A stretch of DNA of 49,047 nucleotides, taken from contig NZ_BCWP01000027.1 of the NCBI RefSeq assembly GCF_001592265.1, forward strand, positions 1-49,047. Reading direction: 5' to 3'. The translations under genes and the position numbers were made by a program. A model generated the notes under the pieces. That model had not been told where the DNA came from, ran no database searches, and saw nothing but the letters and a program-made list of their open reading frames with translations. This DNA comes from Curvibacter delicatus NBRC 14919 (GTDB taxonomy: Bacteria; Pseudomonadota; Gammaproteobacteria; Burkholderiales; Burkholderiaceae_C). Within the stretch, counting starts at the first letter, position 1; each line of letters begins with the position of its first letter. This document shows, piece after piece, positions 29,076-46,898 of the stretch.

Positions 29076-29157
29076 ATGCCTCACGATCGAGAGCTGCGTA
29101 CCGGCACTGCAGAATCATTACCTGAAACGAACGGAACATTGCCCGTGAAATTGCATT

Positions 29158-30132
29158 TCATACGCGGCTCCCTTCGCCCTGAACAAAAGCACGCTGGCGA
29201 TGCGCCAAGATCAGTGCAATGGCGCATGAAGCTATTCGCGTGCGGCGCGAGTCCGAGCGACTGGTGAGCACAATCGGCACGCGCGCGCCCATCACGATCC
29301 CCGCGCTATCGGCTTGGCCCATGTATTCCAGTTGCTTGGCCAGCATGTTGCCGCTTTCCAGGTCGGGAACGACCAGGATGTCGGCTTGCCCGGCCACGGC
29401 GGACTTGATGCCCTTGACGCGCGCGGCATCGGGAGAGACGGCGTTATCAAAGGCCAGTGGCCCGTCGAGCACACCTCCGGTGATCTGGCCACGATCGGCC
29501 ATCTTGCACAGTGCCGCAGCATCCAGGGTTGAAAGCATGCGCGGGTTGACGGTTTCGACCGCCGCCAGGATCGCCACCTTGGGCTCGGCAATGCCGATGG
29601 CGCGCGCCAAGTCGATGGCGTTGCGCACGATGTCGGCCTTGATTTCGAGCGTCGGAGCGATATTGATGGCGGCGTCGGTGATGATGAAGGGCCGTGGGTA
29701 GCTGGCCGTCTGCATGATGTAGCAGTGCGTCAATCGGCGCTCGGTGCGCAGGCAGGCTTCGGGCGCCAGGATGGCACCCAGGTACTCATCGCTGTGCAAG
29801 CTGCCTTTCATCAGCGCCTGCACCTCGCCCTTGCCAGCCAGCCGGGCGGCGGTGGCCGCTGCGGCGTGGCTGTGCGGCACATCGACGACCTCGCTGTCTC
29901 CCAGTTCCAACCCCGTGTCGGCCGCAACGGCACGCAACTTGGCGAGCGGCGCCACCAATACTGGCGAGATGACGCCGGCATCGCGCGCGTCCAAGGCACC
30001 CCCCAAGCTGAGCGCGTCGCAAGGGTGCACCACCGCGGTGCGAACCGGGGCCATGGTTTTGACATGGGCGATAAGACGCTCGACACCACTTGGAGGATCG
30101 GCGCGAACGCCCTCAGGGGCTTGTTCATTCAT
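29158..30132 (-). CDS. pta: Phosphate acetyl/butyryltransferase
   Basis: The product is 324 residues, the short single-domain form. It has ALMKGSLHSDEYLGAIL, RRLTHCYIMQT, FIITDAAINIAPTLE, AILAAVETVNPRML, then GGVLDGPLAFDNAVS and DILVVPDLESGNML, as in the Pta/Ptb family. It interconverts acetyl-phosphate and acetyl-CoA (or butyryl forms). In this island it would connect phosphoketolase-derived acetyl-phosphate to acetyl-CoA for PHB. It overlaps uspA by eight bases and is the last gene of the phaC-led operon. Confidence 0.88.
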   Translation of the reverse strand: MNEQAPEGVRADPPSGVERLIAHVKTMAPVRTAVVHPCDALSLGGALDARDAGVISPVLVAPLAKLRAVAADTGLELGDSEVVDVPHSHAAAATAARLAGKGEVQALMKGSLHSDEYLGAILAPEACLRTERRLTHCYIMQTASYPRPFIITDAAINIAPTLEIKADIVRNAIDLARAIGIAEPKVAILAAVETVNPRMLSTLDAAALCKMADRGQITGGVLDGPLAFDNAVSPDAARVKGIKSAVAGQADILVVPDLESGNMLAKQLEYMGQADSAGIVMGARVPIVLTSRSDSRRTRIASCAIALILAHRQRAFVQGEGSRV

Positions 30133-30688
30133 GTGATTTCTTTGCCTTGCTTGCGCCAGTTGAACGCCAGCCTGACGTACCGATGTTGTCGCTGGCCTTC
30201 ACTGGCGCCCGTGCGGCTGAAGATGGCGGGCCACCATCTCGGCTCGACTGGCGCACCAGCATTACCGGAACTGGCGCGATGCGCGCTACTTGCTCCGCAT
30301 CGCTGCCCAGCAGCAGCCGGTTCATGCCGCGACGTCCGTGGGTGCCCAGGATGACCAGGTCGCAATCGTTGATCTCGGTCTGATGCGCGATCTGTTCCGA
30401 CACGCGTTCGGTGCCGCTTTCAAGCAGCACCGTCTCTGTGGCAATTCCTTCCCGGCGGAGCCGACTCGCAGCCTCATCCAGCAACGTCTGGCCGGCTTTG
30501 AGGAAGCGTGGGCGGACATCCTTGATGTAGACCTCGGGACGTTCGAAACCCGTGCTGTGGCGGGTTGGTTCGACGATATGCAGCAAGATCACGGTGGCGC
30601 CGCTCAGGCGTGCCAGTTCTGCCGCATGATCGAGCGCCAGGAAGGATGTGGGACTGCCGTCCAGCGGCACCAGAAATCGGGAATACAT
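30125..30688 (-). CDS. Universal stress protein UspA family
   Basis: The product is 187 residues. It begins MYSRFLVPLDGSPTSFLALD and has the ATP-binding loop in VILGTHGRRGMNRLLLGSDAEQV with VMLVR after it, the ATP-binding subgroup pattern. The last 35 residues are a low-complexity tail. A strong GGAGGAG precedes ATG 30688. Usp genes accompany acetate kinase and PHB genes in oxygen- or redox-controlled clusters, which suits this context. Confidence 0.88.
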   Translation of the reverse strand: MYSRFLVPLDGSPTSFLALDHAAELARLSGATVILLHIVEPTRHSTGFERPEVYIKDVRPRFLKAGQTLLDEAASRLRREGIATETVLLESGTERVSEQIAHQTEINDCDLVILGTHGRRGMNRLLLGSDAEQVARIAPVPVMLVRQSSRDGGPPSSAARAPVKASDNIGTSGWRSTGASKAKKSHE

Positions 30689-30756
30689 GGAACTCCTCCG
30701 GGAGGCGCTGACTGCCGCGCGGGAAACCGCCCGCAAGGGCTGCGGGCTCTCCCGAC

Positions 30757-31503
30757 TCATGACATGTGCTGGCCACCGTTCATCGCCACGTTGCTGCCCG
30801 TCATGAAAGCAGCAGCGTCACTGGCGATGAAGGCCACCAGCGCCGCGATCTCATCCGGCTGGCCGAGGCGACCCACCGGAATCGCTTCGATGACCTTCTG
30901 GCGCACGTCCTCGCGCACCGCCATCACCATTTCGGTGGCCAGATAGCCCGGCGAGACGGTGTTGACCGTCACGCCCTTGCGTGCCACCTCCTGCGCCAGC
31001 GCCTTGGTGAAGCCATGCACGCCAGCCTTGGCCGCCGAGTAATTGGTCTGGCCGAACTGACCCTTGCTGCCGTTGATGGACGAGACGTTGACGATGCGCC
31101 CCCAGCCACGCTCCACCATCGGATCGATGAATGGCTTGGTGACATTGAACATGGAGTCCAGGTTGGTGCGCAGCACGGCGTCCCAGCCGGCCTTGTCCAT
31201 CTTGCGCAGGGTCGCGTCGCGGGTGATGCCGGCGTTGTTCACCAGGATGTCAACGTGGTGGCCGTCCGCCTGAATCTGACGCGCCAAGGCCTGGGTCGAT
31301 TCCCAGTCGCCGACATCGACGCCGTAGGCCGTGAACCGGTAGCCTTTGGTGTCCTGCGCGTCAAGCCAGGCGGCGACCTTCTCGTTGCCGGGCGTGTGCG
31401 TAATGATGACGCGGTGGCCCGCGTCGTCCAGCGCGCGGGCAATGGCCGCGCCAAGGCCGCGATTGCCGCCAGTGACCAGGGCGGTTCGTCCCGAACTGCT
31501 CAT
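30757..31503 (-). CDS. phaB: Acetoacetyl-CoA reductase PhaB
   Basis: The product is 248 residues of the short-chain dehydrogenase family. The cofactor motif is ALVTGGNRGLGAAIARAL, then NNAG, catalytic Ser in NVSSINGSKGQFGQ, and YSAAK (NYSAAKAGVHGFTKAL). The GQFGQTNY context is typical of PhaB. It reduces acetoacetyl-CoA to (R)-3-hydroxybutyryl-CoA with NADPH, the step before polymerisation by PhaC. GGAGG precedes the ATG. A phasin gene lies 10 bp upstream. Confidence 0.92.
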   Translation of the reverse strand: MSSSGRTALVTGGNRGLGAAIARALDDAGHRVIITHTPGNEKVAAWLDAQDTKGYRFTAYGVDVGDWESTQALARQIQADGHHVDILVNNAGITRDATLRKMDKAGWDAVLRTNLDSMFNVTKPFIDPMVERGWGRIVNVSSINGSKGQFGQTNYSAAKAGVHGFTKALAQEVARKGVTVNTVSPGYLATEMVMAVREDVRQKVIEAIPVGRLGQPDEIAALVAFIASDAAAFMTGSNVAMNGGQHMS

Positions 31504-31513
31504 ATGCGCCTCC

Positions 31514-31957
31514 TCACTTTTTGGCCTTGCCCTGAGGCGCGGCGCCTGGCGCAGTCCAGGGCTGCGTCCATTGCTGAAAAAACTGCGCGAAAGAGGCTGT
31601 GCCGCCGCTGGCGCCGAATACCTCGGAGACAGATGCCTGCCAGGTGGTCAGCGCTTCGCGCAGGCCATCGGCGAATGCCGCCTGGCTCTTGGCAGCAGCC
31701 CGGCCGACCGCCTGTGTGTCGCCCATACGGCCTTGGCACAGGCGCCAGAACACCTCGGACGGCAAGGTGGCAAGCGCCTGCCAGTCCGCTGCCTGTTGGA
31801 GGTTCTGGATGCGCGAGGTGGTCTCCAGCACGCCACCGGCACTGAGCTGCTGCATGGCTTCGAGCCAGTGGTGGCCGCTTTCTTGAAGCAAGCGGGTGAT
31901 CTGAAGCTGCAACTCGGCATTGGCCTTGTAGAGTTGGATGGGCAGTTCGCTGTTCAT
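31514..31957 (-). CDS. Phasin-like polyhydroxyalkanoate granule protein
   Basis: The product is 147 residues, mainly amphipathic helix (YKANAELQLQITRLLQESGH, then WLEAMQQLSAGG), with a Gln-rich middle and an Ala/Pro-rich basic tail (APGAAPQGKAKK). This is the usual phasin layout for coating PHB granules. Position between phaC and phaB supports the call. GGAG lies seven bases before the ATG. Short helical families are easy to misname, so confidence is moderate. Confidence 0.75.
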   Translation of the reverse strand: MNSELPIQLYKANAELQLQITRLLQESGHHWLEAMQQLSAGGVLETTSRIQNLQQAADWQALATLPSEVFWRLCQGRMGDTQAVGRAAAKSQAAFADGLREALTTWQASVSEVFGASGGTASFAQFFQQWTQPWTAPGAAPQGKAKK

Positions 31958-32064
31958 GTCAATGCTCCACGGTCATGATGTGCCCCTCCGGGGCGGGTGT
32001 AGGCCATGGCTGCGCAACGGCCCGATGAAAGTTGAGGGTGTATTCTTGGCGGTGTTTTGTCCTG

Positions 32065-33812
32065 TCATCGCATGGCCACATAGGTTCCCGGCGCATCGCC
32101 AAGCGGTGCTTGCGTCCCGCCCATGGCAGGCGGCGCGACGCGCCCGGCAGAGCGCTGGGCCAGCCATTGCTGCCATGCCGGCCACCAGGAGCCTTCGTTC
32201 ATCGGGGTCTCGGCACGCCACAGTTGCGGATCGATATAGCGATCGCCGGCCGCACGGGTCGCAATCTGGAAGCTGCGCCGGGGGTGTCCCGGCTCGCTGA
32301 CGACGCCGGCGTTGTGCCCCCCGCTGGTGAGAACAAAGGTCAGTTCCGCATCGCTGAGCAGGTGCATCTTGTACACGGACGGCCAGGGGGCGACGTGATC
32401 GCGCACCGTGCCGACGATGAACATGGGCACCTCGATGTCGGCCAGCGCCACGGGTCTCCCGCCGACGCGGTAGCGCCCCTCGGCCAGGTCGTTGTCCAGA
32501 TACAGGCGCCGCAGGTACTCGCTGTGCATGCGGTACGGCATGCGGGTCACGTCGGCATTCCAGGCCATCAGGTCATTGAAGGTCTGACGCTCACCCAACA
32601 GGTATTCGCGCACCCGTCGCGACCAGATCAGGTCGCGTGAGTTGAGCATCTGGAACGCGCCAGCCATCTGCTTGCCGTCGAGATAGCCCTTGTCCCACAT
32701 GCCGGCTTCCAGCCATGCCAGTTGACTGTCGTCGATGAAAAGCGCGATCTCGCCCGACTCGCGGAAATCAGTCTCCGATGCCAGCAGCGTCAGGCTTTGC
32801 AGACGCTCGTCGCCATCGCGGCGGCGGCGATCGCGAGCAAGGTGCCGCCCAGGCAATAGCCGACCGCCTGCACCTTGCGTTCGGGCACGATGGCCGTGAC
32901 CGCATCCAATGCGTCCATGACCCCCAGCCAGCGGTAGTCCTCCAGGCCGAGGTCACGATCGGCCGCCGTCGGGTTCTTCCATGAAAGGATGAACACCGTG
33001 TGCCCCTGATCGACCAGGTACTTCACCATCGAGTTGTGCGGCGACAGGTCGAGGATGTAGTACTTCATGATCCAGGACGGCACGATCAGTACCGGCTCCG
33101 CATGCACATCCGGCGTCGTGGGTGAGTACTGGATCAACTCGATCAGGTGGTTTCGAAACACCACCTTGCCTGGGGTGACCGCCACGTCCTTGCCGACCTC
33201 GAACCCTTCGACCCCTGCAGGCGCATCGTCGAGCGCGAGGCGCCTTGCATCTTCCAGAAAGTTCATGGCGCCGCGCCACAGGTTTGCGCCCCCGCTTTGC
33301 GTGATGGCGTGCAGCACCTCGGGGTTGGTCCAGATGAAATTCGAAGGCGACCACATGTCCAGCCACTGCCGCCCGGCGAAAGTGACCATGTTCTCGTGAT
33401 GGCGCGACACGCCACGCACGCCCGTGGTGGCGTTGTGCCACCACTGCTGCTGCAGCAAAAAGCCCTGGTGAATCACGTTGAAGGGCCACTGCTGCCACGC
33501 CGGGGCGGCAAAGCGCCGATCCTGCTCCAGCGGTTCGATGCAGGTCGGGCAGTCGTGCGCACTGGCAACGCGCAAGGCATAGCGCGCAAGGCGCTGCTGC
33601 TTGTGCAAACCCTTTTCGATCAAGCTGCGTTGCTTGCCTGGTGAAAGGCTCAGGTGCAACGCCCAGTCGTACCAGGCCAGCAGGCCGGCCGCCGGTGACA
33701 GCCCACCCGTGCTGCGCGCCCGCCAGGCGTTCGCAAGCGTATCCAGGGTGTCAGGGCGACAGGCTTCGGGCTGCGCCAGATCGGCCTTGCCGTGTGTTGC
33801 GACGTTGCTCAT
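32065..33812 (-). pseudogene. phaC: Poly(3-hydroxyalkanoate) synthase PhaC, frameshifted
   Basis: Two minus-strand frames together encode one PhaC of about 580 residues. The first (start 33812, with AAGGG upstream) covers the N-terminal domain, the LSWKNPTAADRDLGLEDY region and the nucleophile Cys in AVGYCLGGTLLAIAAAAMA, then runs into a stop at 32790. The second continues the family sequence from about 32835 (DGDERLQSLTLLASETDF) through the Asp (VGTVRDHVAPW) and His (TSGGHNAGVV) of the triad. The frames join near 32825-32840, where GCGATGGCG-type repeats favour slippage. The nucleophile and the other triad residues are in different frames, so no active enzyme is expected unless this is a sequencing error or recoding occurs. 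Confidence 0.85.
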
Positions 33813-33832
33813 CTCCAACCCTTCATTTAGCG

Positions 33833-33860
33833 AGTAACATATTACTATCTTATCGCTTAC
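33833..33860. promoter_or_regulatory. Dyad at the phaC promoter, putative operator
   Basis: AGTAACATATTACT (33833-33846) is nested in a larger imperfect dyad from AGCGA (33829) to TCGCT (33853). Read on the minus strand, TTGCAA and TAAGAT with 16-bp spacing form a possible phaC promoter whose -10 overlaps the dyad. Related sequence occurs at 27011-27034 and 34091-34107. A TetR-type regulator would fit a site of this kind. Confidence 0.5.
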
Positions 33861-33990
33861 AGGAAAAGTTGCAAGCCTTCCGCAGGGGCGCCAAATTTTT
33901 CAGCCACCCAAAGCTCAATCACTACCGCTGCTGATGCTGCAGTCCGACGATCAAGCACTTTTCGATCTGTCTGGAAGGCCATACAGCTTC

Positions 33991-34004
33991 TTGAGTTGCA
34001 TCAA
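33991..34004. promoter_or_regulatory. FNR/ANR-like box
   Basis: TTGAGTTGCATCAA differs from the FNR/ANR consensus TTGAT-N4-ATCAA at a single half-site base. It lies in the 320-bp divergent region between phaC and the TetR-NodT gene. Oxygen-responsive control is consistent with the acetate, alcohol dehydrogenase and PHB genes on both sides. This is a sequence match only. Confidence 0.5.
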
Positions 34005-34090
34005 GTTGACCGATCCGCTCTCCCCAGGAAAGGGCCCACAGTCCTGCCTCACCCGACAAGTTTCCGATCTTGCATCATGGTCATTTTGCG

Positions 34091-34107
34091 TGTTACGATA
34101 GTAATAG
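34091..34107. promoter_or_regulatory. Putative operator upstream of the TetR-NodT gene
   Basis: TGTTACGATAGTAATAG has dyad arms GTTAC and GTAAT. Its reverse complement shares TATTACTATC with the phaC site. It lies about 30 bp before the start at 34134 and would overlap that gene's promoter, a usual arrangement for TetR autoregulation. Confidence 0.4.
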
Positions 34108-34133
34108 ATCACTAACTACATGGAGTCCGAATC

Positions 34134-35726
34134 GTGAGTCAACGCCCCCAATACCTGTCCGCCGAAGATCGGCGTGCGGCCACAGTGCAAGCCGTGGTTG
34201 ATCTGGCAGCCGAGCAGAACCCGGCCGAGATCACGACCACGGCGATTGCCGACCGAATGGGCCTGACACAGGGCGCGCTGTTTCGCCACTTCCCCACCAA
34301 GGAAGCCATCGTGGAAGCCACGATGTCGTGGGTCGGCGAACGTCTTCTGGTCACCGTGGACAAGGCGGCCGAGGGCGCCGCATCTCCCGCCGCAGCGCTC
34401 GAAGCGATGTTCATCACGCACATCGACTTCGTGTCCAAGCACCCGGGCGTGCTGAACCGACGCGGGCAAAGCAAGAACGGCCCCTTGCCCGTGGGCTCGA
34501 TTCCCGGCATGGACGCCACCCAGACCATCTACGATGCGGGCTTCGATGCGGCCTGGGAGGCCGATCTATTCGGCGCCAAGCGCCGCGCCCTGGAAGGCGC
34601 CAGCGCCCGCCTGCAAGCCACCGAAGTCGAAGCACAGGGTGTGCGCATGCGCATCGTGGCCGAGGTCGCACGCACCTGGTTCACCGCCGTTGGTGCTGGA
34701 TACGAACTGCATGCACAACAAGCCACGCTGGATACGCTGCAGCAGACCTTGGAGCTGGTGCGCCTGCGGCATGCATTGGGCGACGCATCCGCCGCCGATG
34801 TGGAGGCGGCTTATGCGCAGTGGACTGCCGTCAACGCACTGCTGCCGGACATCCAGGCCCGCCAGCGCGCCGCGGTGCTGGGCCTGGGCGTGCTCTTGGG
34901 CGCTCCACCGGAGCGTGAACTGGCATTGCTCGACGGCCCCTTGGCACCGTGCACGCTGCGGGCCCTGCCGGTGGGCGAACGTGCTGATCTTCTGCGCCGC
35001 CGCCCTGACGTGCTGGCCGCGGAACGGCGTCTGGCGGCGAGTTCTGCCGACATCGGCGTGGCCACGGCCGAGCTGTTCCCCAAGCTCTCCATCGGTGTCG
35101 GCGGCGGGTTTCAGGCGCTCAGCACGGGCAACTGGTTCGATGCATCCAGTTCACGGTTTTCCATCCTGCCGCTGATTTCCTGGCGTCTGTTCGATGGTGG
35201 CCGCGTGCGTGCCGAGATTCGGGCACGCGAGGCCGCCGAGCAGCAGGCGGCGCTGGCCTATGAGCAGGCGGTGTTGGCGGCGCTGGGTGACGCCGAGCGT
35301 GCGCTGGGCGACTACCACGGCGGGCTGGACACGTTGGAGCGCCGTGCCATGGCCCTGGATGCGGCACGAACCAGCTACGGCTACGCCAAGGCTCGCTACG
35401 CCGCGGGCGATGTTGCACTGGTGGAGCTGCTGGCCGCCCAGCGCAGCCTGCACGAAGCCGAGACTGCGGCCGCACGTGCGCATACCAGCGCCGCCGTGCA
35501 ATTGGTGGCGCTGTACAAGGCGCTCGGGGGCGGCTGGGAGGTATCCAACATGACGCCAAGCGCCGCCCATTCGCCTACAGGCGCCGCCGCACCCACGCCT
35601 CGTGCAAGTCGCTCCGGCATGCCTGCAAGCGCCGCCGCGACGGAACACCTCACAAGCCAAAGCGCGGAACGCGAAACCCTTACTCACTTGATCATCAACA
35701 GGCCAACCGAAGGAGCCAAGCCATGA
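34134..35726 (+). CDS. Chimeric frame: TetR N-terminus joined to a NodT-type outer-membrane efflux protein
   Basis: The frame has 530 codons. Residues 15-65 are a TetR helix-turn-helix ([27 protein letters not shown]), and the start of the ligand domain continues to about 105 ([14 protein letters not shown]). From about residue 132 ([20 protein letters not shown]) the sequence is the middle and C-terminal part of a NodT/OprM efflux channel ([31 protein letters not shown]). The signal peptide and first third of NodT are absent, as is the rest of TetR. A deletion most likely removed the end of tetR, any pump genes and the start of nodT, leaving an in-frame join near 34450-34525. The product is unlikely to reach the outer membrane, but its DNA-binding domain may still work. 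Confidence 0.8.
35685..35705. repeat. Second copy of the ICE-end sequence (att-like)
   Basis: GATCATCAACAGGCCA at 35690-35705 is identical to 12947-12962 beside the guaA attachment core. The match extends leftward over CACT with one mismatch, 20 of 21 bases in all, in the same orientation. It lies at the border between the NodT remnant and the alcohol dehydrogenase gene. It may be a relic of an earlier integration or recombination at an ICE end. Chance is possible but unlikely given the position. Confidence 0.5.
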
Positions 35727-36874
35727 CCACCACCGCCTTTTTCATTCCGCCCGTGAACCTGATGGGCGCGGGCTGTCTTCGTGATGCAGCCAAGGCCATC
35801 CAGTCCTATGGCTTCAGGAAAGCGCTGATCGTGACCGACCTTCCCTTGGTTCGTCTCGGACTGGTCGGCAACGTGCGCGACCTTCTTGCCAGCCACGGCG
35901 TGGATACCCTGGTTTTTCATGGAGTGCAGCCCAACCCGACGACCAAGAACGTGGCCGATGGGCTGAAGCAACTGCGCGACAACGATTGTGATTTCGTCAT
36001 CTCGCTCGGCGGCGGTTCGCCGCACGACTGCGCCAAGGGAATCGCATTGGTCGCTGCCAATGGCGGAACGATCAAGGACTACGAGGGACTTGACCAGTCG
36101 GCCAAGCCGCAGCTGCCCTTGGTGGCGATCAACACCACGGCTGGAACGGCCAGCGAAATGACGCGCTTTTGCATCATCACCGACGAGGCGCGCCACGTGA
36201 AGATGGCGATCGTCGACAAGCACACGACGCCCATTCTCTCGGTCAACGACCCCGAGCTGATGCTGCTCAAACCCGCCAGCTTGACCGCCGCCACCGGCAT
36301 GGATGCCCTTACGCACGCGGTGGAGGCCTATGTTTCAACCATTGCCACGCCGATCACCGATGCCTGCGCACTCAAGGCCGTGGCATTGATAAGCCAATGG
36401 CTGCGCAAGGCGGTGGCTGACGGGCGAAACGTCGAAGCGCGCGAACAGATGGCCTATGCGCAGTTCCTCGCCGGCATGGCCTTCAACAATGCCTCGCTGG
36501 GCTACGTGCACGCCATGGCGCATCAACTGGGCGGCTTCTACGACCTGCCGCACGGTGTGTGCAACGCCGTCCTGCTGCCGCACGTGCAGGCCTACAACAA
36601 GCAGGTCGCTGCGGGACGCCTCGCCGACATCGCCCGCGCGATGGGGGAAAAGACCGATGGCCTGGGCGACGAGGCCGCCGCGGATCTGTGCCTATTGGCG
36701 ATTCGCCAATTGTCCGCCGACATCGGCATTCCCCACGGGCTGTCACAGCTTGGCGTTCAGGCCAAGGACTTTCCCACCCTGGCCACCAATGCGCTCAAGG
36801 ACGCGTGCGGACTGACCAATCCAATACAGGCGTCGCACGAGGAAATCAGTGCCATTTTCGCGGCGGCCATGTAG
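35723..36874 (+). CDS. Iron-containing alcohol dehydrogenase
   Basis: The product is 383 residues of the group III Fe-dependent alcohol dehydrogenase family. It has [15 protein letters not shown] (cofactor binding), [30 protein letters not shown], and the metal ligands in [20 protein letters not shown]. It reduces an aldehyde such as acetaldehyde with NADH, or acts on 1,2-diols. AAGGAG precedes the ATG, and the start overlaps the upstream stop by four bases (ATGA). In the island it could dispose of excess reductant. Confidence 0.93.
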
Positions 36875-36927
36875 CCGTCGGCGTGATTTCCCGAACCCGT
36901 TCTATCCCACCATCAAGGAGTGCCTCC

Positions 36928-37137
36928 ATGCAAACGAACGTAGGAAACCTCGATCGCATCGCGCGCGTCGTCATCGGCCTGATCCTGCTCAGCTTGCCGT
37001 TGTGGCTGGATTCGCCATGGCGGTGGCTGGGGCTCATCGGAATCATGCCGCTGATTACCGGCCTGGCGGGTCACTGTCCGGGCTATCGCCTGCTCGGCGT
37101 GAACACCTGTCCAATGCAAAAGAAGAAGCCCGAGTGA
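36928..37137 (+). CDS. DUF2892 membrane protein
   Basis: This 69-residue protein begins MQTNVGNLDRIARVVIGLIL and has two hydrophobic stretches (VVIGLILLSLPLWL and LGLIGIMPLITGLAGHCPGY) followed by LLGVNTCPMQKKK. DUF2892 (YgaP-like) inner-membrane segments carry this N-x-D-R-x-x-R start and the late Cys. The family often lies near rhodanese or redox genes. AAGGAG precedes ATG 36928. Confidence 0.85.
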   Translation: MQTNVGNLDRIARVVIGLILLSLPLWLDSPWRWLGLIGIMPLITGLAGHCPGYRLLGVNTCPMQKKKPE

Positions 37138-37144
37138 GCATCCC

Positions 37145-38557
37145 ATGAAACTGAAATTTCTGGGTGCTGCGCGCGAAGTCACCGGGTCGTGCTTCCTGGT
37201 GGAGGCGGCGGGCCTGCGCTTCCTGGTGGATTGCGGCATGGTTCAAGGGGGCTCTGCGGCGGCGGCGCGCAACCGCGAGCCATTTCCGTTCGACCCGGCA
37301 GCTATCGATTTCGTGCTCCTGACCCATGCCCACATCGACCACAGCGGGCTATTGCCCAAACTCACCCGCGCCGGGTTCAAAGGGGCCATCTACACCACTC
37401 CCGCCACGGTTGATCTGCTGGGCGTGATGCTGCCCGACAGTGCACACATCCAGGAGAGCGATGCAAAACGCAGTGCCAAGCGGTTCCGCGGAAAGGACCC
37501 GCTGCCGCCGCTGTACACGCTGCAGGATGCGCGCGAATGCCTGCAGCAGGTACGAGGCATCGAATACGACCGGGAGTTCGCGCCCCGGGTCGGGGTGCGC
37601 GCGCGCTTTCGCGATGCCGGGCACATCCTCGGTTCGGCCATCATCGAAGTCTGGGTCACCGAGTACGGCTACCCGACAAAACTGGTATTCAGCGGCGACC
37701 TTGGCCAGCCGGGACGCCCGATATTGCGCGACCCGACACCCATCGAGGACGCCGACATCCTCGTCATCGAGTCCACCTATGGCAACCGCCAGCACAAGGA
37801 CTTTTCGGCAACCGAAGAGGAGATGATCGGCATCGTCGAGAAAACCCTGTTCGAACGCGGTGGCAACGTCATCGTGCCGGCCTTCGCGGTCGGTCGAACC
37901 CAGGAAGTCCTGTACCACCTGCACCGTCTCACCAGCGAGGGGCGGCTGCGGCAACCGAGGGTATTCGTTGATTCGCCGATGGCCACGGAAGCCACGCGCA
38001 TCACGCGCGAGCACCTTGAGCTGTTCGACGAGCAGGCCAAGCGCTTGGCCGGGTGGCACGCGCGGGGCGAAAACCTGCCGTATCTGCATTTCACGGAAAG
38101 CGCCGACGAATCCATGGCGCTGAACCAGATTCGTTCGGGCGCGATCATCATTTCCGCCAGCGGCATGTGCGACGCGGGACGCATCCGGCACCACCTGCGC
38201 CACAATTTGCCGCGCAAGGAATGCAGCGTCCTGTTCTCCGGCTTTCAGGCGCAGGGAACACTGGGCCGCCAACTGGTCGATGGCGCGGCGCGCGTGCGCA
38301 TCTTCGGCGACGACATTCCGGTGCGCGCGGCGATCCACAGTGTCGATGGGCTCTCGGCGCACGCCGACCAACCAGCCCTGATGGCCTGGGCCCGAGGCTT
38401 CAAGCAAGCCCCCGAGCAAACCTTTGTAGTGCATGGGGAGCCGTCCGCCGCGCAGGCTTTGGCGGAACTCCTGCAACAGCAGCTTGGCTGGCAGGTCTCG
38501 GTGCCCGAGCGCGGCCGGGTCGTTCCGTGGCCGGATTTTCTGGTGGTCGAGCGATGA
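37145..38557 (+). CDS. Metallo-beta-lactamase/beta-CASP ribonuclease-like protein
   Basis: The product is 470 residues. The metallo-beta-lactamase part has LLTHAHIDHSGLLPKL (HxHxDH zinc site), DAGHILGSAII and FSGDLGQ. The beta-CASP insert and final motifs follow: ESTYGNR, NVIVPAFAVGRTQEVLYHL, ISASGMCDAGRIRHHL and SVDGLSAHADQ. This matches RNA-processing exonucleases of the YsgH/CPSF-like group. A target is not known. The gene overlaps the LOG gene by four bases. Similar genes recur beside phosphoketolase and acetate kinase in PHB or stress islands, but why is unclear. Confidence 0.88.
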   Translation: MKLKFLGAAREVTGSCFLVEAAGLRFLVDCGMVQGGSAAAARNREPFPFDPAAIDFVLLTHAHIDHSGLLPKLTRAGFKGAIYTTPATVDLLGVMLPDSAHIQESDAKRSAKRFRGKDPLPPLYTLQDARECLQQVRGIEYDREFAPRVGVRARFRDAGHILGSAIIEVWVTEYGYPTKLVFSGDLGQPGRPILRDPTPIEDADILVIESTYGNRQHKDFSATEEEMIGIVEKTLFERGGNVIVPAFAVGRTQEVLYHLHRLTSEGRLRQPRVFVDSPMATEATRITREHLELFDEQAKRLAGWHARGENLPYLHFTESADESMALNQIRSGAIIISASGMCDAGRIRHHLRHNLPRKECSVLFSGFQAQGTLGRQLVDGAARVRIFGDDIPVRAAIHSVDGLSAHADQPALMAWARGFKQAPEQTFVVHGEPSAAQALAELLQQQLGWQVSVPERGRVVPWPDFLVVER

Positions 38558-39420
38558 CACCGCCCGCTGATCCTGACGAGCGCCTGCGCGCCATCCTCGA
38601 TTCACCCACATACCGCCTTGCGTATGAAGACATCGATTTGCTTGGCCAGGACGATCTGCGCCCGCTGCGTCTCCAACTCGAACTGCTCAAGCCCGAACGC
38701 ATCTTGCGTGAGCAAGGCGTGCATTCGACCGTGGTGGTGTTTGGCAGTGCGCGCGTAAGCGATGCTGCCACTGCACGCGACCGGCTCGCTGTGCTGGAGC
38801 AGCGAGCGGGCACCATGCCGGGGAATCCAACGTTTGGGCGGGACCTGACCTTGGCCCGTCGCCGCGTGGAACAGGCACGCTATTACGAAGAGGCACAGCG
38901 CTTCGCCCAACTGATCTCTGCTCGTTTCCAGCAGGAGGGGCGGTGCGACTTCGTCGTCATCACCGGTGGCGGCCCCGGCATCATGGAAGCCGCCAATCGC
39001 GGTGCTTTCGATGCCGGGGCCCGCTCGATCGGCCTCAACATCACTTTGCCGCACGAACAAGCGCCGAACCCCTACATGTGTCCGGAGCTGGCGTTTCGGT
39101 TCCACTATTTCGCGCTGCGCAAAATGCATTTCTTGCTGCATGCGAAAGGTTTGGTGGCCTTCCCCGGTGGCTATGGAACGCTCGACGAACTGTTCGAGGT
39201 GCTGACCCTGATCCAGACCGGCAAGATGCAGCGGATTCCGGTGGTTCTGGTCGGCCGCGGCTTCTGGAGCCGAGCCGTTGATTTCGATCTTCTGCTCGAC
39301 GAAGGCTACGTATCGCCATCCGATCTCGACTTGTTTACCTGCGTGGACAAAGCCGAGGAAATCATGGGTGCCTTGGAACGCTTTTACGTCGATAGAGCAA
39401 CAGATGGCGCGCCATCATGA
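38554..39420 (+). CDS. LOG family protein (cytokinin riboside 5'-monophosphate phosphoribohydrolase-like)
   Basis: The product is 288 residues. It has VVVFGSARVSD, ITGGGPGIMEAANRGAFDAG, and the family signature FPGGYGTLDELFEVLTL. LOG enzymes hydrolyse nucleotide monophosphates such as AMP to free base and ribose 5-phosphate. The long N-terminal part (about 95 residues before the core) matches the longer bacterial subgroup. ATG 38554 overlaps the upstream stop. Released ribose 5-phosphate could feed phosphoketolase after epimerisation, which is speculation. Confidence 0.85.
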   Translation: MTPPADPDERLRAILDSPTYRLAYEDIDLLGQDDLRPLRLQLELLKPERILREQGVHSTVVVFGSARVSDAATARDRLAVLEQRAGTMPGNPTFGRDLTLARRRVEQARYYEEAQRFAQLISARFQQEGRCDFVVITGGGPGIMEAANRGAFDAGARSIGLNITLPHEQAPNPYMCPELAFRFHYFALRKMHFLLHAKGLVAFPGGYGTLDELFEVLTLIQTGKMQRIPVVLVGRGFWSRAVDFDLLLDEGYVSPSDLDLFTCVDKAEEIMGALERFYVDRATDGAPS

Positions 39421-40616
39421 TGCGCATCGGCAGCCTTCACGCGCGGCTGCCAAAGGCCAATGCGCAATGGTCGATGCGCAGTATCACGCCGCTGATTGCG
39501 TGCGCGGTACTCGGCTCGACTGCCGCCCGTGGCGCAGAGCCCGCATCCTCGGATGGTATTTCCCGCTGCCTGCCAGAGCACGCCTTGCACTGGAGAGGTG
39601 GAACCCTGCGCCTGGAGAACGATTTGTTCACCGGTACCGACCGCAACTACACCAACGGCGTGGCGTTGAGCATGGTTTCGCGCGATCTGCAAGGCGCGCT
39701 CCGCCCGGAGTGTCTGCCCCAACCGATTGCCTGGTACACCCGCTTCATCGGCTGGGCTGATCCTGAGTTCTGGCGCGACTCCGGTGCCCGGTCGGCGTCG
39801 CAAAACATCGTCGTGCGCTTCGGCCAGTCCATGTACACACCCGAGGACAAGGCACGCACCGATCTGATTTCTGACGATCGCCCGTACGCCGGCCTGCTGT
39901 ATCTGGGTCTGGCATGGAATCGCCGCGTCCACCCACAGGCCGTCAGCTATGAAATACTTGATGTGCGCGAACTGACCCTGGGCGTGATTGGCCCCTGGTC
40001 GTTGGCGGAGCAATCGCAGGATCTGGTGCATCGGGTGCGGGGCATCGATCGTTTTCGCGGCTGGGACAACCAGTTGCGCAACGAACCCGCGTTCCAGATG
40101 GCGATGGAGCGCAAGTTCAAGTCGTACACAGAGGGTGCCGTCCGGCCGGGATGGAGCGGCGACGTGATCGGCAGCTATGCCCTGCGGATCGGAAACATCG
40201 AAACCGCAGCCAGCACCGGCATGGAATTGCGTGCGGGCTGGAACATTCCGAACGACTTCGGCAGCTATCCGATTCGGCCCGGCGCGGAGAATCGCCCGCC
40301 CTCGGGCGTTTCCGACCTGCGCAGAACAGAGCCTCAATCAGCGCGCGCGCCCAAACCCGGAGCGCATGCATTCCTGAATCTGGAGGCCAAAGCCGTTGCC
40401 TGGGATTTCTCGCTCGACGGGAATCTGTTTCGGCACAGCCATCACGTCAGTCGACGACCCTGGGTCGCTCAGGCAGCCATTGGCATCAGCAGCCAATGGA
40501 TTGTTGCCGGGCATGGCGTGCGGCTTGCCGTGATGCGCGTCTGGAGAACCCGCGAGTTCGACCAGCAGATCGGCCATCACGCCTTCGGATCGATTGCGTT
40601 GAGCATGGAATTTTGA
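39417..40616 (+). CDS. LpxR-like outer-membrane lipid A deacylase
   Basis: The product is 399 residues with an N-terminal export signal (ITPLIACAVLGSTAARGA). The LpxR (DUF2219) signature follows: LRLENDLFTGTDRNYTNGVA, then DRPYAGLLYLGLAW, and YALRIGNIETAAS. LpxR removes the 3'-acyloxyacyl chain of lipid A in the outer membrane, which alters recognition and permeability. The start overlaps the LOG stop by four bases. A paired ATGATG makes the exact start uncertain. Confidence 0.82.
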   Translation: MMRIGSLHARLPKANAQWSMRSITPLIACAVLGSTAARGAEPASSDGISRCLPEHALHWRGGTLRLENDLFTGTDRNYTNGVALSMVSRDLQGALRPECLPQPIAWYTRFIGWADPEFWRDSGARSASQNIVVRFGQSMYTPEDKARTDLISDDRPYAGLLYLGLAWNRRVHPQAVSYEILDVRELTLGVIGPWSLAEQSQDLVHRVRGIDRFRGWDNQLRNEPAFQMAMERKFKSYTEGAVRPGWSGDVIGSYALRIGNIETAASTGMELRAGWNIPNDFGSYPIRPGAENRPPSGVSDLRRTEPQSARAPKPGAHAFLNLEAKAVAWDFSLDGNLFRHSHHVSRRPWVAQAAIGISSQWIVAGHGVRLAVMRVWRTREFDQQIGHHAFGSIALSMEF

Positions 40617-40676
40617 AATCCCGAAGCCATGCGCCCGCCTGCGAAGCATTCACCAACAACCTCCATGGAGAATCCC

Positions 40677-41138
40677 GTGAGTTACCTCTTGAACCCTCGA
40701 CAGCTTTTGACGATCACGTTGTCAGTAGCCTTGGCCACCGCCACCACGGGACTGGGCGCGCAGTCCGCTGACGCTGCAAAGCCGATGGCGCTTCGCAGCG
40801 TCATGGAGCGACTTGGCCGTGACATGCAAGCCGTCACCGGTGCGATTTCCAAGGAGGAATGGACACTGGTCGCCGAGTTGGCGCCCAAAATCGCCAAGCA
40901 TGCCGAGCCACCTCTGGGCGAAAAGATGCGCATTCTTGGCTGGCTTGGCACGGATGCCGGGAAATTCCGGGGTTTCGATGGACAGGTCCAGGACGCTGCG
41001 AGCGCCATGGGGGATGCCGCCAAGCGCGGCGACGGCCAGGCCGTTATCGCCGCATTCTCCAAGACACAACAAAGCTGCCTCGCTTGTCACCAAAGCTTCC
41101 GACAATCGTTCGTGGAACAGTTTTATGGGAGTCGCTGA
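40677..41138 (+). CDS. Cytochrome c'-type protein (cytochrome c556-like)
   Basis: The product is about 153 residues. A signal peptide (LTITLSVALATATTGLGAQSADA) precedes a four-helix body with a single heme site near the C-terminus, SCLACHQSFRQSF, the arrangement of cytochrome c'. Such proteins bind NO or carry electrons in the periplasm. I prefer GTG 40677 because GGAG lies six bases before it; ATG 40665 and ATG 40629 are in frame. It fits a low-oxygen or redox role in the island. Confidence 0.82.
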   Translation: MSYLLNPRQLLTITLSVALATATTGLGAQSADAAKPMALRSVMERLGRDMQAVTGAISKEEWTLVAELAPKIAKHAEPPLGEKMRILGWLGTDAGKFRGFDGQVQDAASAMGDAAKRGDGQAVIAAFSKTQQSCLACHQSFRQSFVEQFYGSR

Positions 41139-41177
41139 CACGCATTTGTCCCAGGCCGGTTTGTATGGGGCATCACG

Positions 41178-42386
41178 ATGAGCAACTCCCAGCCGAGCCT
41201 CATCCTGGTGCTCAATTGCGGCTCCTCAAGCATCAAGTTCGCCTTGTTCGATGCACAGGTGCGCCCGTTGCCGCGCGAGCCGCTCTGGCACGGCAAGGTG
41301 CAAGGGATTGCTGGGCCCGCGCCTGAGTACAGCGACAGTGGCACTGCACAGCAGCGCATCCATCTGGATCACGAACACCCTCACACCGCCGCTCTGGCGC
41401 TGGTTCAAGCGCGCATCGTGGCCCGACTCGATGGCCGCCGCATTGTGGCCATCGCGCATCGTGTCGTCCATGGCGGCAGCAGGTACTTCGAGCCAACCGT
41501 GGTGACCGATGGCTCCATCGCGGAGCTGCGGGCCTTGATTCCTTTGGCGCCGTTGCACCAACCCTTTCCCCTGAAGGCCATGAGTTTGCTGTTCGAGCAG
41601 TGGCCCGGAATTGTTCAGGTAGCGTGCTTCGATACAGCCTTTCACCGCACGGCGCCGAAGGTGGAGCAGATCCTGCCGCTGCCGTACTCGGCCTGGGAAC
41701 GCGGTCTGCGCCGCTACGGCTTTCACGGCCTTTCATACGACTACATGAGCCACGTCCTGCCCGAGCGCCACGGTGATCTGGCACGCGGCCGCACCATCGT
41801 CGCGCACCTCGGCAGCGGGGCCAGCCTGTGCGCGATGCAGAACCTGCAAAGCATCGCCACCACGATGGGATTTTCCGCGCTCGACGGCCTGATGATGGGC
41901 ACCCGTACCGGCTCGCTCGATCCGGGCGCCCTGCTCTACCTGATGGAGATCGAAAAGCTCTCACTGGAAGAAGTAGGCCGCACGCTCTACAACCAGTCCG
42001 GCCTGCTCGGTGTTTCCGGGATTTCGGCCGAGCCGCGCGTGGTGGTGAAGCACGAGAGCGATTCCGGCGAAGTCGGCGAACGCGCCCGCATCGCGTTGGC
42101 GCTCTACGTGCGCCGTATCGTGCGGGAGATTGGCGCACTGATCGCAGTCATTGGCGGCCTGGATCTGCTCGTGTTCACTGCCGGTGTCGGTGAGCACAAC
42201 GCCTTCGTGCGCGAGCGCGTCTGCCGCGACCTGGCATTTATCGGCATCAAGCTGGATGCCGATGCCAACGCCATCGATGCCCCGGTTATCTCCACCACCG
42301 ACAGCCGGGTGCTGGCCGCGGTGGAGCCTACCAACGAGGAATGGATCACAGCGCGCTATACGCAGGATTTGATAGGCGGCGCGTGA
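41178..42386 (+). CDS. ackA: Acetate kinase
   Basis: The product is 402 residues. It has LVLNCGSSSIKFALFD (N-terminal phosphate site), HRVVHGG, ACFDTAFHRTAP, RRYGFHGLSYDYMS, IVAHLGSGASLCAM, and LVFTAGVGEHNAFVRERV, all diagnostic. It converts acetyl-phosphate and ADP to acetate and ATP. It precedes phosphoketolase by 83 bp, so the two likely work as an ATP-yielding pair. Confidence 0.95.
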   Translation: MSNSQPSLILVLNCGSSSIKFALFDAQVRPLPREPLWHGKVQGIAGPAPEYSDSGTAQQRIHLDHEHPHTAALALVQARIVARLDGRRIVAIAHRVVHGGSRYFEPTVVTDGSIAELRALIPLAPLHQPFPLKAMSLLFEQWPGIVQVACFDTAFHRTAPKVEQILPLPYSAWERGLRRYGFHGLSYDYMSHVLPERHGDLARGRTIVAHLGSGASLCAMQNLQSIATTMGFSALDGLMMGTRTGSLDPGALLYLMEIEKLSLEEVGRTLYNQSGLLGVSGISAEPRVVVKHESDSGEVGERARIALALYVRRIVREIGALIAVIGGLDLLVFTAGVGEHNAFVRERVCRDLAFIGIKLDADANAIDAPVISTTDSRVLAAVEPTNEEWITARYTQDLIGGA

Positions 42387-42469
42387 TGTCCCAGCCAGGC
42401 CGAGCGCGCTCAACTCAACTGACTCTGTAGCCACGCAGGGATTCATCGACATCAAAGAGGGGAAATCGC

Positions 42470-44842
42470 ATGACCACCGCTTCCACCATCCGCCAGTGCT
42501 GGCTTGCCGGGCACGGCCCCATCGTCCATCGCGACGAGACCATCAAACGCATGGAAACCCTGGTGACCCGTTTGATCGTCGAGGGCCGTGTTGCCGACGA
42601 GACGACGGCCTACACCCTGCTTGCCGCCGCCGACCGCCTGAGCTGCGTGGCCATGAACGTGGTCGCGCACATGACCTATGCGCGCCGCATCGATCTTTCC
42701 GGCGCGGCGCTGTCAGCCGAGGACTTCAAGCCCACGCCCGAAGGCCACACCGGCGGCTCGCTGAATATGGTGCAGGCCTTCGTCGGCTACCTGCTGGCCA
42801 ACGCGCTCACCGGCAGCACACGCGGCTGGATCATGGGCCAGGGCCATTGTGTCGCCGCCATCGAAGCCGTCAATGTGCTGACCGGCGATGTCTCGCCCGC
42901 GCAGCGGGGCCGCTACGACCGCAGCGAGCAAGGCCTGTCGCGCCTGTGTGCCGATTTCTATTCCTATGCCATCGATGCGCAGGGCCGCCCGGCCGTGCCG
43001 CTGGGCAGCCATGCCGGCCCCAACACCGCCGGTGCCGTGTCCGAAGGCGGCTACCTCGGCTTTGCCGAACTGCAGTACATCCACATGCCGCTGCCTGGCG
43101 AATCGCTGGTCGCCTTCCTCAGTGACGGCGCCTTCGAGGAGCAGCGTGGCCCGGACTGGGCGCCGCGTTGGTGGCGCGCGCAAGACAGCGGCTTCGCTGT
43201 ACCGGTGATGATCCTCAACGGCCGCCGCATCGAGCAACGTACCCAGATCATGCAGGAAGGGGGTGCGCAATGGCTGGCCGACGACGTGCGCCACAACGGC
43301 TTCGACCCGGTGATCGTCGATGGCCGCGACCCGGCCGCGATCGCCTGGGCAATCGTCGAAGCCGAGGGCGCGCTGCGTGCGTTTGCCGCCGATCCGGATC
43401 GCCGCTATCCGGCGCCTCTGCCCTACGTGATCGCCGAGACCGAGAAGGGCTTCGGCTTTCCCGGTGCTGGCAGCAACGCCGCGCACAACCTGCCGTTGGG
43501 CGGCAACCCCCACACCGATGTCGCCATGCGTGGGCGGTTCAACGAAAGCGCGGCTGCGCTCTTCGTTGCTCCGGTCGAACTCGACGCGACGCTCACCGCC
43601 TTCGCAACCCACGCCGCCCAGCAGCGCCCGCTGGAAAGCGCGCATCCGATGGCGCACCGCCACCCCGCTGCGCCCAGGCTGCCCGAACCGCGCTGGGAAA
43701 TATCAGGCAGCGAAGGCAGTGCGATGACGGCGCTGGATCAGTGGTTCGTTGAATTCGCCAAAGCCAATCCCGAGCTGCGCATGCGCATCGGCAACCCTGA
43801 CGAATTGGCCAGCAACAAGATGGGCGGCACGCTGGCGCTGCTCAAGCACCGCGTCAACGAGCCCGAACCCGGTGTGCCTGAGGATTTGCACGGCGCCGTC
43901 ATCACCGCGCTCAACGAAGAGGCCGTGGCCGCCGCCGCACTCGGCAACAAGGGTGGACTGAACCTGATCGTCAGCTACGAGGCCTTCGCCGTAAAAATGC
44001 TCGGCCTGATGCGGCAGGAAATCATCTTCGCCCGCCACCTGCGTCAGGTCGGCCAGCCCGCCGGCTGGCTGTCGGTGCCACTCATCGTCACCTCGCACAC
44101 CTGGGAGAACGCCAAAAACGAACAGTCGCACCAAGACCCGACGATCGGCGAAGCCCTGCTGGGCGAGATGTCGGACACCTCGCGCGTGTTGTTCCCGGTG
44201 GATGGCAACACTGCGGTCGCCGCGCTGCGCGAAATCTATGCCGGACGCGGGCAACTGGCCTGCCTCATCGTTTCCAAGCGCGACGTGGAGAACCGCTTCG
44301 ATGCCGAATCGGCGCAACGCCTGATCCGTGACGGCGCGGCCCATCTGATCGGTGACCCCGCCGAGGCCGAAGTGCAGCTCATCGCGCTGGGTGCCTACCA
44401 ACTCGACGAGGCGATCAAGGCGCAGCAGCACCTTGCCGGGATGGGCAAGCGCGCCTGCGTCACCGTCATCCTGGAACCTGGCCGCCTGCGCATCCCGCGC
44501 GATGCCATGGAAGCGGAGTTCGTCGATGAAGACGCCACTGTCAGCACGCTGTTCCCGCAAGGCCTGCCGCGCGTGATCCTCACCCACACGCGCCCCGAGC
44601 CCATGCTCGGCATTCTGCGCCGCATCGACAACGGCCCGACCAGGACGCACGCCCTCGGCTACATCAGCCGCGGCGGCACCTTCGATGTCCCCGGCATGCT
44701 GTTCGCCAACCGCTGTACCTGGGCGCATACGGTGGATGCCGCAGCGACCGTGGCCGGCTGGAATCGTGAAGCACTGCTCGACCCTGCGCAGCGCGCGGCT
44801 CTTGATGGCACCGGCGATCCCAAAGATTTATTGAGCCCGTGA
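42470..44842 (+). CDS. xfp: Xylulose-5-phosphate/fructose-6-phosphate phosphoketolase
   Basis: The product is 790 residues, the usual length. Thiamine-diphosphate and substrate motifs include PEGHTGGSLNMVQAFVGYLL, GHAGPNTAGAVSEGGYLGFA-like sequence, SDGAFEEQRGPDWAPRWW, PGAGSNAAHNLPLGGNPHTD and HTWENAKNEQSHQDPTIGEA. It splits xylulose 5-phosphate (or fructose 6-phosphate) with phosphate into acetyl-phosphate and glyceraldehyde 3-phosphate (or erythrose 4-phosphate). A GAGGGGA site precedes the ATG. It is the last intact gene of the cargo island; relaxase debris starts within 10 bp of its stop. Confidence 0.95.
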   Translation: MTTASTIRQCWLAGHGPIVHRDETIKRMETLVTRLIVEGRVADETTAYTLLAAADRLSCVAMNVVAHMTYARRIDLSGAALSAEDFKPTPEGHTGGSLNMVQAFVGYLLANALTGSTRGWIMGQGHCVAAIEAVNVLTGDVSPAQRGRYDRSEQGLSRLCADFYSYAIDAQGRPAVPLGSHAGPNTAGAVSEGGYLGFAELQYIHMPLPGESLVAFLSDGAFEEQRGPDWAPRWWRAQDSGFAVPVMILNGRRIEQRTQIMQEGGAQWLADDVRHNGFDPVIVDGRDPAAIAWAIVEAEGALRAFAADPDRRYPAPLPYVIAETEKGFGFPGAGSNAAHNLPLGGNPHTDVAMRGRFNESAAALFVAPVELDATLTAFATHAAQQRPLESAHPMAHRHPAAPRLPEPRWEISGSEGSAMTALDQWFVEFAKANPELRMRIGNPDELASNKMGGTLALLKHRVNEPEPGVPEDLHGAVITALNEEAVAAAALGNKGGLNLIVSYEAFAVKMLGLMRQEIIFARHLRQVGQPAGWLSVPLIVTSHTWENAKNEQSHQDPTIGEALLGEMSDTSRVLFPVDGNTAVAALREIYAGRGQLACLIVSKRDVENRFDAESAQRLIRDGAAHLIGDPAEAEVQLIALGAYQLDEAIKAQQHLAGMGKRACVTVILEPGRLRIPRDAMEAEFVDEDATVSTLFPQGLPRVILTHTRPEPMLGILRRIDNGPTRTHALGYISRGGTFDVPGMLFANRCTWAHTVDAAATVAGWNREALLDPAQRAALDGTGDPKDLLSP

Positions 44843-44849
44843 GTCAGGT

Positions 44850-45285
44850 ACGCGAATCCTGTGCCGGTCATGAAGTGCGCCGGCAGCTCCAGGCCGGTGG
44901 AGGCGATGTCCTCGCGGTCTGCGCCAGTTCTCAACTGCGCAACGTGCCCAGCAGGTTGCATGTCAGGATCACGCATCGCCTGCACCGCTTATCCAGTCCC
45001 TGTTCGTCCAGGGAGTCGGCGCGCTGCTGCATCGCCTGCTTGGTTCCCTCACCGGAGCCCAGGTTGCTCAGGCCCGCCCTGCTGCCATTCGAGCCGGGTG
45101 GCCCCGATCACGCGGGCCTGCCGCTCGATGGGCAGGTACGATTTCAGCTCAATGGCCACACCACCCAGACGCTGCACGTCATGGCGGCGGCCCTGCTCGG
45201 GCTGATCGTTCGGCACCTTCCATAGCCCTTCGACCACGCGCTCCATGGTGCTGGCACGGCGTGGTGCCTCCAAGTGCCCGAACGT
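44850..45285 (-). pseudogene. Decayed ICE relaxase fragment (DUF3363 region, RlxS/TraI-like)
   Basis: Minus-strand translation gives VEGLWKVPNDQPEQG, DVQRLGGVAIELKSYLPIER and QARVIGATRLE, then after a frameshift near 45065 LSNLGSGEGTKQAMQQRADS and VILTCNLLGTLRS, then a stop and ELAQTA. This follows the DUF3363 domain that forms the C-terminal part of Tn4371-type relaxases (family pattern ELKSHLPIERQARVIGATWLD, RVILARNLLGTLR.RELA). At least one frameshift and one nonsense codon are visible. The N-terminal nickase part is not found within the window. An overlapping plus-strand frame (44839-45225) is a by-product. Confidence 0.72.
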
Positions 45286-45354
45286 GGCTAGACACTTTGC
45301 ACGGGGGCGAATGGGCCTGCCTTGGGCATACCCTCACCCTGCTTGGCATGTCCT

Positions 45355-46883: not shown

Positions 46884-46898
46884 GGTGGCTCCTTGCGG

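Follow-up and report, generated by a model that had tools for sequence, protein, structure and literature searches.

The stretch analysed here, called the window below, comprises bases 1-49047 of contig C27 in the draft genome of Curvibacter delicatus (3.76 Mb, 108 contigs). It carries conjugation genes resembling those of the Tn4371 family of integrative and conjugative elements (ICEs), followed by a block of metabolic, stress and envelope genes that probably represents a damaged copy of the cargo of such an element. Genes of the block were called by Pfam scans, and NCBIfam models were used for some of the proteins. Most of the cargo genes named in the initial annotation were confirmed by Pfam, namely those for Pta, Usp, PhaB, the iron-containing alcohol dehydrogenase (Fe-ADH), the beta-CASP protein, LOG, LpxR, cytochrome c', AckA and the phosphoketolase (XFP), while the phasin was marginal and PhaC proved to be broken. 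Corrections were needed for phaC, for an open reading frame (ORF) that joins TetR and OEP domains and was passed over in the initial annotation, for the subfamily of the phosphoketolase and for a relaxase relic.

The block consists of two divergent arms. The left arm, on the reverse strand, contains the broken phaC (32065-33818), a phasin gene (31514-31957; 24.8 bits in Pfam against a cut-off of 24.9), an acetoacetyl-CoA reductase gene of the short-chain dehydrogenase type (phaB, 30757-31503; above the TIGR01829 cut-off), a universal stress protein gene (usp, 30125-30760), a phosphate acetyl/butyryltransferase gene (pta/ptb, 29158-30132; Pfam and NCBIfam) and an alpha/beta hydrolase gene (27060-29084). 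The right arm, on the forward strand, begins with the TetR-OEP chimera (34134-35726), followed by the Fe-ADH gene (35723-36874), which was identified by Pfam and NCBIfam and appears, by reference comparison, to be optional cargo. The beta-CASP protein (37145-38557) has the RNase TTHA0252 as its closest solved relative by sequence; a match to a model named Type VII CRISPR Cas14 scored 411 bits against a cut-off of 800 and was dropped. The LOG-family phosphoribohydrolase gene (38662-39420), the start of which is uncertain, encodes a protein that scores above the TIGR00730 cut-off and contains the motif PGGYGTLDE, which we take to be characteristic of such proteins. The remaining genes of this arm encode an LpxR-type lipid A deacylase (39417-40616), a cytochrome c' family protein with a CLACH haem motif (40629-41138), acetate kinase (AckA, 41178-42386) and a phosphoketolase (42470-44842). 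Two further ORFs, at 44839-45225 on the forward strand and 45179-46849 on the reverse strand, had no Pfam match and were judged to be shadow ORFs.

The block was found to be collinear over about 27-32 kb in six other genomes, those of Comamonas badia, Dechloromonas agitata, Diaphorobacter nitroreducens, Cupriavidus gilardii, Acidovorax benzenivorans and a Burkholderiaceae metagenome-assembled genome (MAG), and is thus not a chance grouping of genes. The mean DNA identity of the collinear blocks ranges from 84.2% (Acidovorax) to 98.8-99.4% (C. badia). The alpha/beta hydrolase gene lies within these blocks in all six references, and the Fe-ADH gene is absent from four of them. D. agitata and the Burkholderiaceae MAG have 28.1 kb in common at 96.7%. 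In Diaphorobacter nitroreducens and Cupriavidus gilardii (loci L102-L107), 45.5 kb of the element plus its edge are common at 98.9%, pointing to a recent transfer. Among the genomes of the same genus, none of the 25 others searched, some of which are only 70-90% complete, contained this phosphoketolase; a match of any kind was found in 12 of 60 genomes searched (C. delicatus included), with at least 50% identity in only three besides it. The proposal of the initial annotation that the gene set is mobile is upheld: by the comparison with these Tn4371-like elements, it forms part of the cargo of an ICE and has been transferred from one genus to another.

The conjugative part of the element occupies positions 13392-25457 on the reverse strand and contains trbI, trbG (CagX), trbF (VirB8), trbL, trbE, trbB, a ribbon-helix-helix gene and traG, all identified by Pfam. 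The order traG followed by trbB-trbI is that of the Tn4371 family. A LysR-type regulator gene (25942-26868, same strand) lies between the cargo and traG and corresponds by position and domain to traR. Chromosomal homology with two genomes of the same genus stops at 12949, the 3' end of guaA, where comparison with these genomes and with contig C38 delimits an attR core, TCCCACTCGAT (12939-12949). A matching 11-bp core lies at C38:2625-2635, at the end of an intact guaA (GMP synthase), with a tyrosine integrase gene next to it. On these comparisons, the element sits at guaA and has kept both attachment (att) ends and a tyrosine integrase. Homology to five of the six reference elements begins at 13183-13194, and the C. 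badia contig begins at window position 21237. According to PMC2789088, the att sequence TTTTTCAT belongs to the Tn4371 family, and some members are listed without one; no such 8-mer was found within 12600-13300, the core at guaA being present instead.

The copy in C. delicatus also departs from typical Tn4371-family elements in having only a relic of a DUF3363-type relaxase gene (44907-45279, reverse strand, with an internal TGA), the only match of this type in the assembly. A full-length relaxase gene is present in all six references; the C. delicatus assembly yielded no intact relaxase of the DUF3363 type, relaxases of other types not having been searched for, and for the ParA-like ATPase encoded by the element of C. 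badia the best match there is 33% identical. The relic (44886-45287) shows only about 77% DNA identity to the relaxase genes of the cognate elements, and C. badia has it together with a full relaxase gene located further on, so that it may come from another element. The element as it stands can hardly be called transferable, as had been proposed, although the integrase and att ends remain.

The claim that the programme is complete was not borne out either. A 10-bp deletion near 32810, judged against Comamonas badia, has put the N-terminal (32790-33818) and C-terminal (32065-32856) parts of PhaC into different frames. In all six reference loci, phaC is intact as a single ORF of 585-633 amino acids. 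The chimeric ORF contains the first ~106 TetR residues and the C-terminal part of the OEP protein in one frame, and results from a 6,281-bp deletion relative to C. badia, with no microhomology (0 bp) at the joint 34452|34453. The deleted stretch is present in all six references, with the OEP end cut in the Burkholderiaceae MAG (FR11). In D. agitata it contains the rest of TetR, a 163-amino-acid ORF without Pfam match, HlyD, a double ABC ATPase, two ABC-2 permeases and the full OEP gene. We take this pump, which in D. agitata has a HlyD adaptor, a subunit with a double ATPase, a pair of ABC-2 permeases and an accompanying TetR, to be of the YbhGFSR type of ABC efflux systems; it differs from that type in having its own OEP and adjoining metabolic genes, and in the window it has been deleted. 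The breaks could instead be assembly or sequencing errors in a copy that is in reality intact, since both come from one draft assembly and phaC is unbroken in every reference. We regard this as quite improbable, given the deletion joint without microhomology and the fact that, apart from these breaks, comparison with C. badia shows a single 2-bp indel over about 27 kb. As far as the assembly shows, the copy in C. delicatus is decayed and has lost the ABC efflux pump, about half of TetR, the PhaC of the module and the DUF3363 relaxase.

What has been lost in the block is partly present elsewhere in the genome. Another contig carries phaC (572 amino acids), thiolase and acetoacetyl-CoA reductase genes in a row, and the broken phaC is thus backed up by a host copy. 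The block itself contains no ketothiolase, as the initial annotation had stated. In a search of the genome, the only acetate kinase match and the only XFP match were both found in the block, and the route formed by these two enzymes is, by these searches, new to this host.

The two arms are separated by an intergenic region in which near-identical putative operators are found. The motif GATAGTAATNNNTTACT, allowing two mismatches, gave three matches in the window (two sites, one of them read on both strands) against 0.01 expected, and only one further site with two mismatches exists in the rest of the genome. A motif search combined with a comparison of relatives predicts a TetR-type operator at the phaC promoter (33833-33849, reverse strand, 14/14 positions) and another at the tetR promoter (34097-34113, forward strand, 13/14). 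Their conservation was analyzed in the best 80 of 159 loci, some of which are cut short by contig ends. The phaC-side operator (at least 12/14) was present in 18 of 18 loci in which phaC and tetR are divergent as here, and in none of the six loci with PhaC in another arrangement. A TetR match of at least 40% identity was found in 58 loci, of which five were not scored (in L030 and L059 the locus begins too close to the gene; in L071, L072 and L074 the gene is on the other strand); 45 of the 53 usable loci had a tetR-side operator of at least 11/14, usually 37 nt before the start codon, and the N-terminal parts of the TetR proteins scored were 60 to 95% identical. As background, 25 of 3000 random 160-bp stretches reached 11 of 14, with true sites probably among them. 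Six loci (L045, L047, L052-L054, L066) have kept PhaC, TetR, beta-CASP and LOG together without the operator. From the operators at both promoters, we infer a single TetR regulon with two divergent arms. Because TetR keeps only about 106 residues in C. delicatus, loss of repression is predicted there, with both arms derepressed. A sigma-70 scan of the phaC-tetR intergenic region gave nothing above threshold, and fewer matches than shuffled sequences (1 vs 3.7); the putative promoters, with about 8/12 matches by eye, were placed by operator position. Solved relatives of TetR were also inspected for a ligand, but the best matches were SlmA and a mixture of TetR proteins, and no clear ligand emerged.

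The initial annotation had assigned the block to carbon overflow and survival at low oxygen or under energy stress. In its full form, this explanation would be that of a complete overflow and survival programme driven by ANR/FNR, providing poly-3-hydroxybutyrate (PHB) and ATP when oxygen is scarce. An FNR-like box with one mismatch is indeed found between the arms (33991-34004, forward strand), and the window contains five such boxes against 0.8 expected; those at 42237, 42442 and elsewhere were not used. The lxa (low-oxygen-activated) locus of Burkholderia cenocepacia, of similar content as listed in Table 2 of PMC6127331, has also been tied to persistence in limited oxygen. However, the box is not conserved across the family, being present with at most one mismatch in only eight of the 18 loci in which the phaC-side TetR operator is always found, and its estimated distances to the two start sites are ~110 and ~155 bp. 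In addition, phaC and the pump are broken here and the alcohol dehydrogenase is optional. Oxygen control of this kind thus seems improbable, the lxa locus being an indirect precedent for it.

The occurrence of the individual genes among the 80 loci allowed us to consider what the block was selected for. LOG was found in 67 loci, TetR in 58, LpxR in 47, OEP in 43, PhaC in 27, and AckA and Xfp in 11 each. The figures for TetR, LpxR, OEP, AckA and Xfp, together with the presence of the pump stretch in all six references, would fit an efflux or envelope-stress island in which TetR, the ABC pump, OEP and LpxR are selected and the metabolic genes are passengers. We hold this to be a real contender, though on the unlikely side, since LOG and PhaC also recur, PhaC even in rearranged orders (L036, L060, L073), and since in C. 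delicatus the pump is gone while the metabolic genes stay open, the OEP gene also being cut in the MAG. It could also be argued that the block is a pile of unrelated accessory genes. The slot that separates the relaxase gene from traG is known to take up accessory genes (PMC11448139), and accretion is visible in the optional Fe-ADH gene, the relaxase relic and a cassette encoding an extracytoplasmic function (ECF) sigma factor. The shared operators at both promoters, the conserved gene order and the position of LOG directly after beta-CASP in 65 of the 80 loci make such an origin very doubtful.

The phosphoketolase of the block is an unusual one. It matches PF03894 with 139 bits and is related to solved phosphoketolases (10 PDB sequences, the best at 1.3e-20), but reaches at most 130.5 bits on six NCBIfam phosphoketolase models with cut-offs of 777-1518, thus falling short of the curated thresholds. 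The catalytic His/Glu set, for which we assume the numbering H64, H97, H142, H320, E437, E479 and H553, is kept in the window protein and in aligned relatives of at least 54% identity, whereas H548 is replaced by Lys. Judged by these scores and alignments, the protein belongs to a divergent subfamily. Fifteen plasmid records (H41-H55) encode a member of the subfamily with at least 46% identity, and 14 of them label it 'xylulose 5-phosphate 3-epimerase'.

The neighbourhoods of ten of these plasmid genes were examined (all except H44, H45, H46, H48 and H53), with flanks of 14 kb for three and 6 kb for seven. A phosphoribosyl pyrophosphate (PRPP) synthetase and a 'thymidine phosphorylase family' gene were found near the divergent phosphoketolase in eight of the ten (seven within 6 kb), and an annotated metallo-beta-lactamase (MBL) protein in seven. 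Four of the eight phosphorylases were scanned; they resemble AMP phosphorylase, with scores of 432-483 bits against a cut-off of 535 for that model, and they also passed the cut-offs of two more general models named 'thymidine phosphorylase'. Of the seven MBL proteins, four were scanned, and all of these match beta-CASP RNase models or domains, one being 42% identical to that of the window. By comparison, none of four ordinary plasmid phosphoketolases had PRPP synthetase, phosphorylase or MBL genes within 6 kb, and acetate kinase was found near three of these four against two of the ten divergent ones. A cluster of PRPP synthetase, divergent phosphoketolase (annotated as an epimerase), beta-CASP RNase and AMP-phosphorylase-like enzyme recurs in plasmid loci L123, L125 and L151-L156. 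The plasmid clusters (pLA4, pAK2, pAtCFBP6623a and others) resemble the block in that their phosphoketolases fall into its subfamily (54-68% identity) and their beta-CASP protein is related to that of the block (42% for pLA4). They differ in having the AMP-phosphorylase-like enzyme in the place of LOG, which is the beta-CASP partner in the window, and no PhaC/TetR arm is annotated in the stretches examined (in H52, a TetR gene lies 5 kb away).

These associations raise the possibility that the block is a mobile route from RNA to energy, in which RNA and nucleotides would give up ribose-5-phosphate through the action of the beta-CASP RNase and LOG, isomerases of the host would pass it to the divergent phosphoketolase, AckA would yield ATP, and Pta, PhaB and PhaC would bank the rest, with TetR tying the whole to pumping and, via traR, to transfer. 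The phosphoketolase subfamily may, on this view, even use a different pentose (bis)phosphate. The proposal is speculative and more probably wrong than right; against it, beta-CASP is joined by Xfp and AckA in no more than 11 of the 80 loci. A partial literature search, covering titles and the beginnings of abstracts, gave no account that we recognised of this cargo or of a link between phosphoketolase and AMP phosphorylase. One paper, on C. metallidurans CH34 (PMC2864759), contains the terms 'Tn4371' and 'polyhydroxy' together.

The element was compared with systems already described. It resembles Tn4371 and ICEKKS102Tn4677 in the traG-trb order, in the LysR-type gene at the traR position downstream of the cargo, and in the location of the cargo, which has the relaxase gene on one side and traG on the other. 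The traR of ICEKKS102Tn4677 is an activator of transfer that shares a transcript with cargo genes (PMC11448139). Neither polyhydroxy- nor phosphoketolase nor acetate kinase is mentioned in the main text of two papers on this family (PMC11448139, PMC2789088), the latter of which mentions a UspA homologue in an element of P. aeruginosa PACS171b. The lxa locus comprises 50 genes including six universal stress proteins (PMC6127331) and is reported as missing from strain H111 (PMC3759415). Like the block, it lists PhaB, Pta/Ptb, an alcohol dehydrogenase, a 51-kDa metallo-beta-lactamase protein, universal stress proteins and cytochrome c, according to Table 2 of PMC6127331; unlike the block, no conjugative element or TetR operator appears in the lxa descriptions examined (PMC6127331, PMC3759415). 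The lxa locus may be a relative of the block. A candidate second lxa-like beta-CASP protein, in Burkholderia aenigmatica, gave only a weak match over 68 residues and was set aside.

Further genes were noted in the window. The ECF cassette (45355-48122) contains an ECF sigma factor gene (46899-47588, reverse strand), an anti-sigma ORF in which a zf-HC2 domain was recognised, an ORF of the Metal_resist (CpxP-like) type, a short ORF for a secreted product that has no Pfam match and, after it, a PepSY gene. It appears to be of a metal- or envelope-stress type; its neighbours are the phosphoketolase gene on one side and, on the other in C. badia, the full relaxase gene. The window departs from C. 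badia at 48193, about 0.9 kb before its end. The chromosomal neighbours of the element, at 6848-12852, include adjoining genes for a histidine kinase of the Cache/PAS type, a receiver-GGDEF-EAL protein and a periplasmic binding protein. An ORF at 4730-6103 joins a cytidine-deaminase-type domain to an alpha/beta hydrolase domain.

Taken together, these data lead us to favour, with a probability of roughly 60%, the interpretation that the block is a damaged copy of a Tn4371-like ICE cargo whose intact relatives combine a TetR switch on two arms, an acetyl-phosphate/PHB route and a coupling to traR. In these relatives, TetR would sit between the divergent arms and repress both promoters until released by an inducer, probably a pump substrate or an acyl metabolite. 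The right arm would then provide the YbhGFSR-like pump, beta-CASP and LOG for RNA and nucleotide turnover, LpxR acting on the envelope, cytochrome c', AckA and the phosphoketolase. The left arm, which is oriented toward traR, would provide Pta, Usp, PhaB, phasin and PhaC, and transcripts reading on into traR and traG would link induction of the cargo to transfer. If the enzymes have their predicted activities, sugar phosphate would be converted by the phosphoketolase to acetyl-phosphate, from which flux would go either to ATP and acetate (AckA) or, through Pta, to acetyl-CoA and to PHB with the help of a host thiolase. In C. delicatus, with its truncated TetR and presumably derepressed arms, the surviving new functions would be those of AckA and the phosphoketolase, beside the host phaCAB.

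Several observations weigh against this interpretation. AckA and the phosphoketolase, present in so few of the loci, lie outside the common core. The loci that bear the operators are often close relatives, so that their counts are not independent, and eight of the 53 usable loci have no tetR-side operator, six of these with PhaC rearranged and no phaC-side site. Matches to the TetR C-terminal domain are many and weak. Weak terminator-like stems, found where pta ends (29208-29194) and in the gap that separates traR from traG (25522-25502), are contrary to free read-through. Homology to the references starts 237 bp inside the guaA att core, and a nested insertion is possible. Finally, both breaks and the absence of the relaxase gene were observed in one draft assembly of 108 contigs, in which assembly errors are possible.

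If this interpretation is true, one conjugative element would provide its recipient with a switch under repressor control, by which efflux is linked to carbon storage and to substrate-level ATP formation; via traR, the induction of these functions may also be linked to the spread of the element. The link to nucleotide catabolism, if true, would provide a function for a phosphoketolase-like family called epimerase in plasmid records, and would mean that a mobile element teaches its host to use RNA as fuel. The damaged copy in C. delicatus represents a natural test of such a system, as the pump, the repressor and the relaxase are gone and the acetate kinase route, new to the host, is still open.

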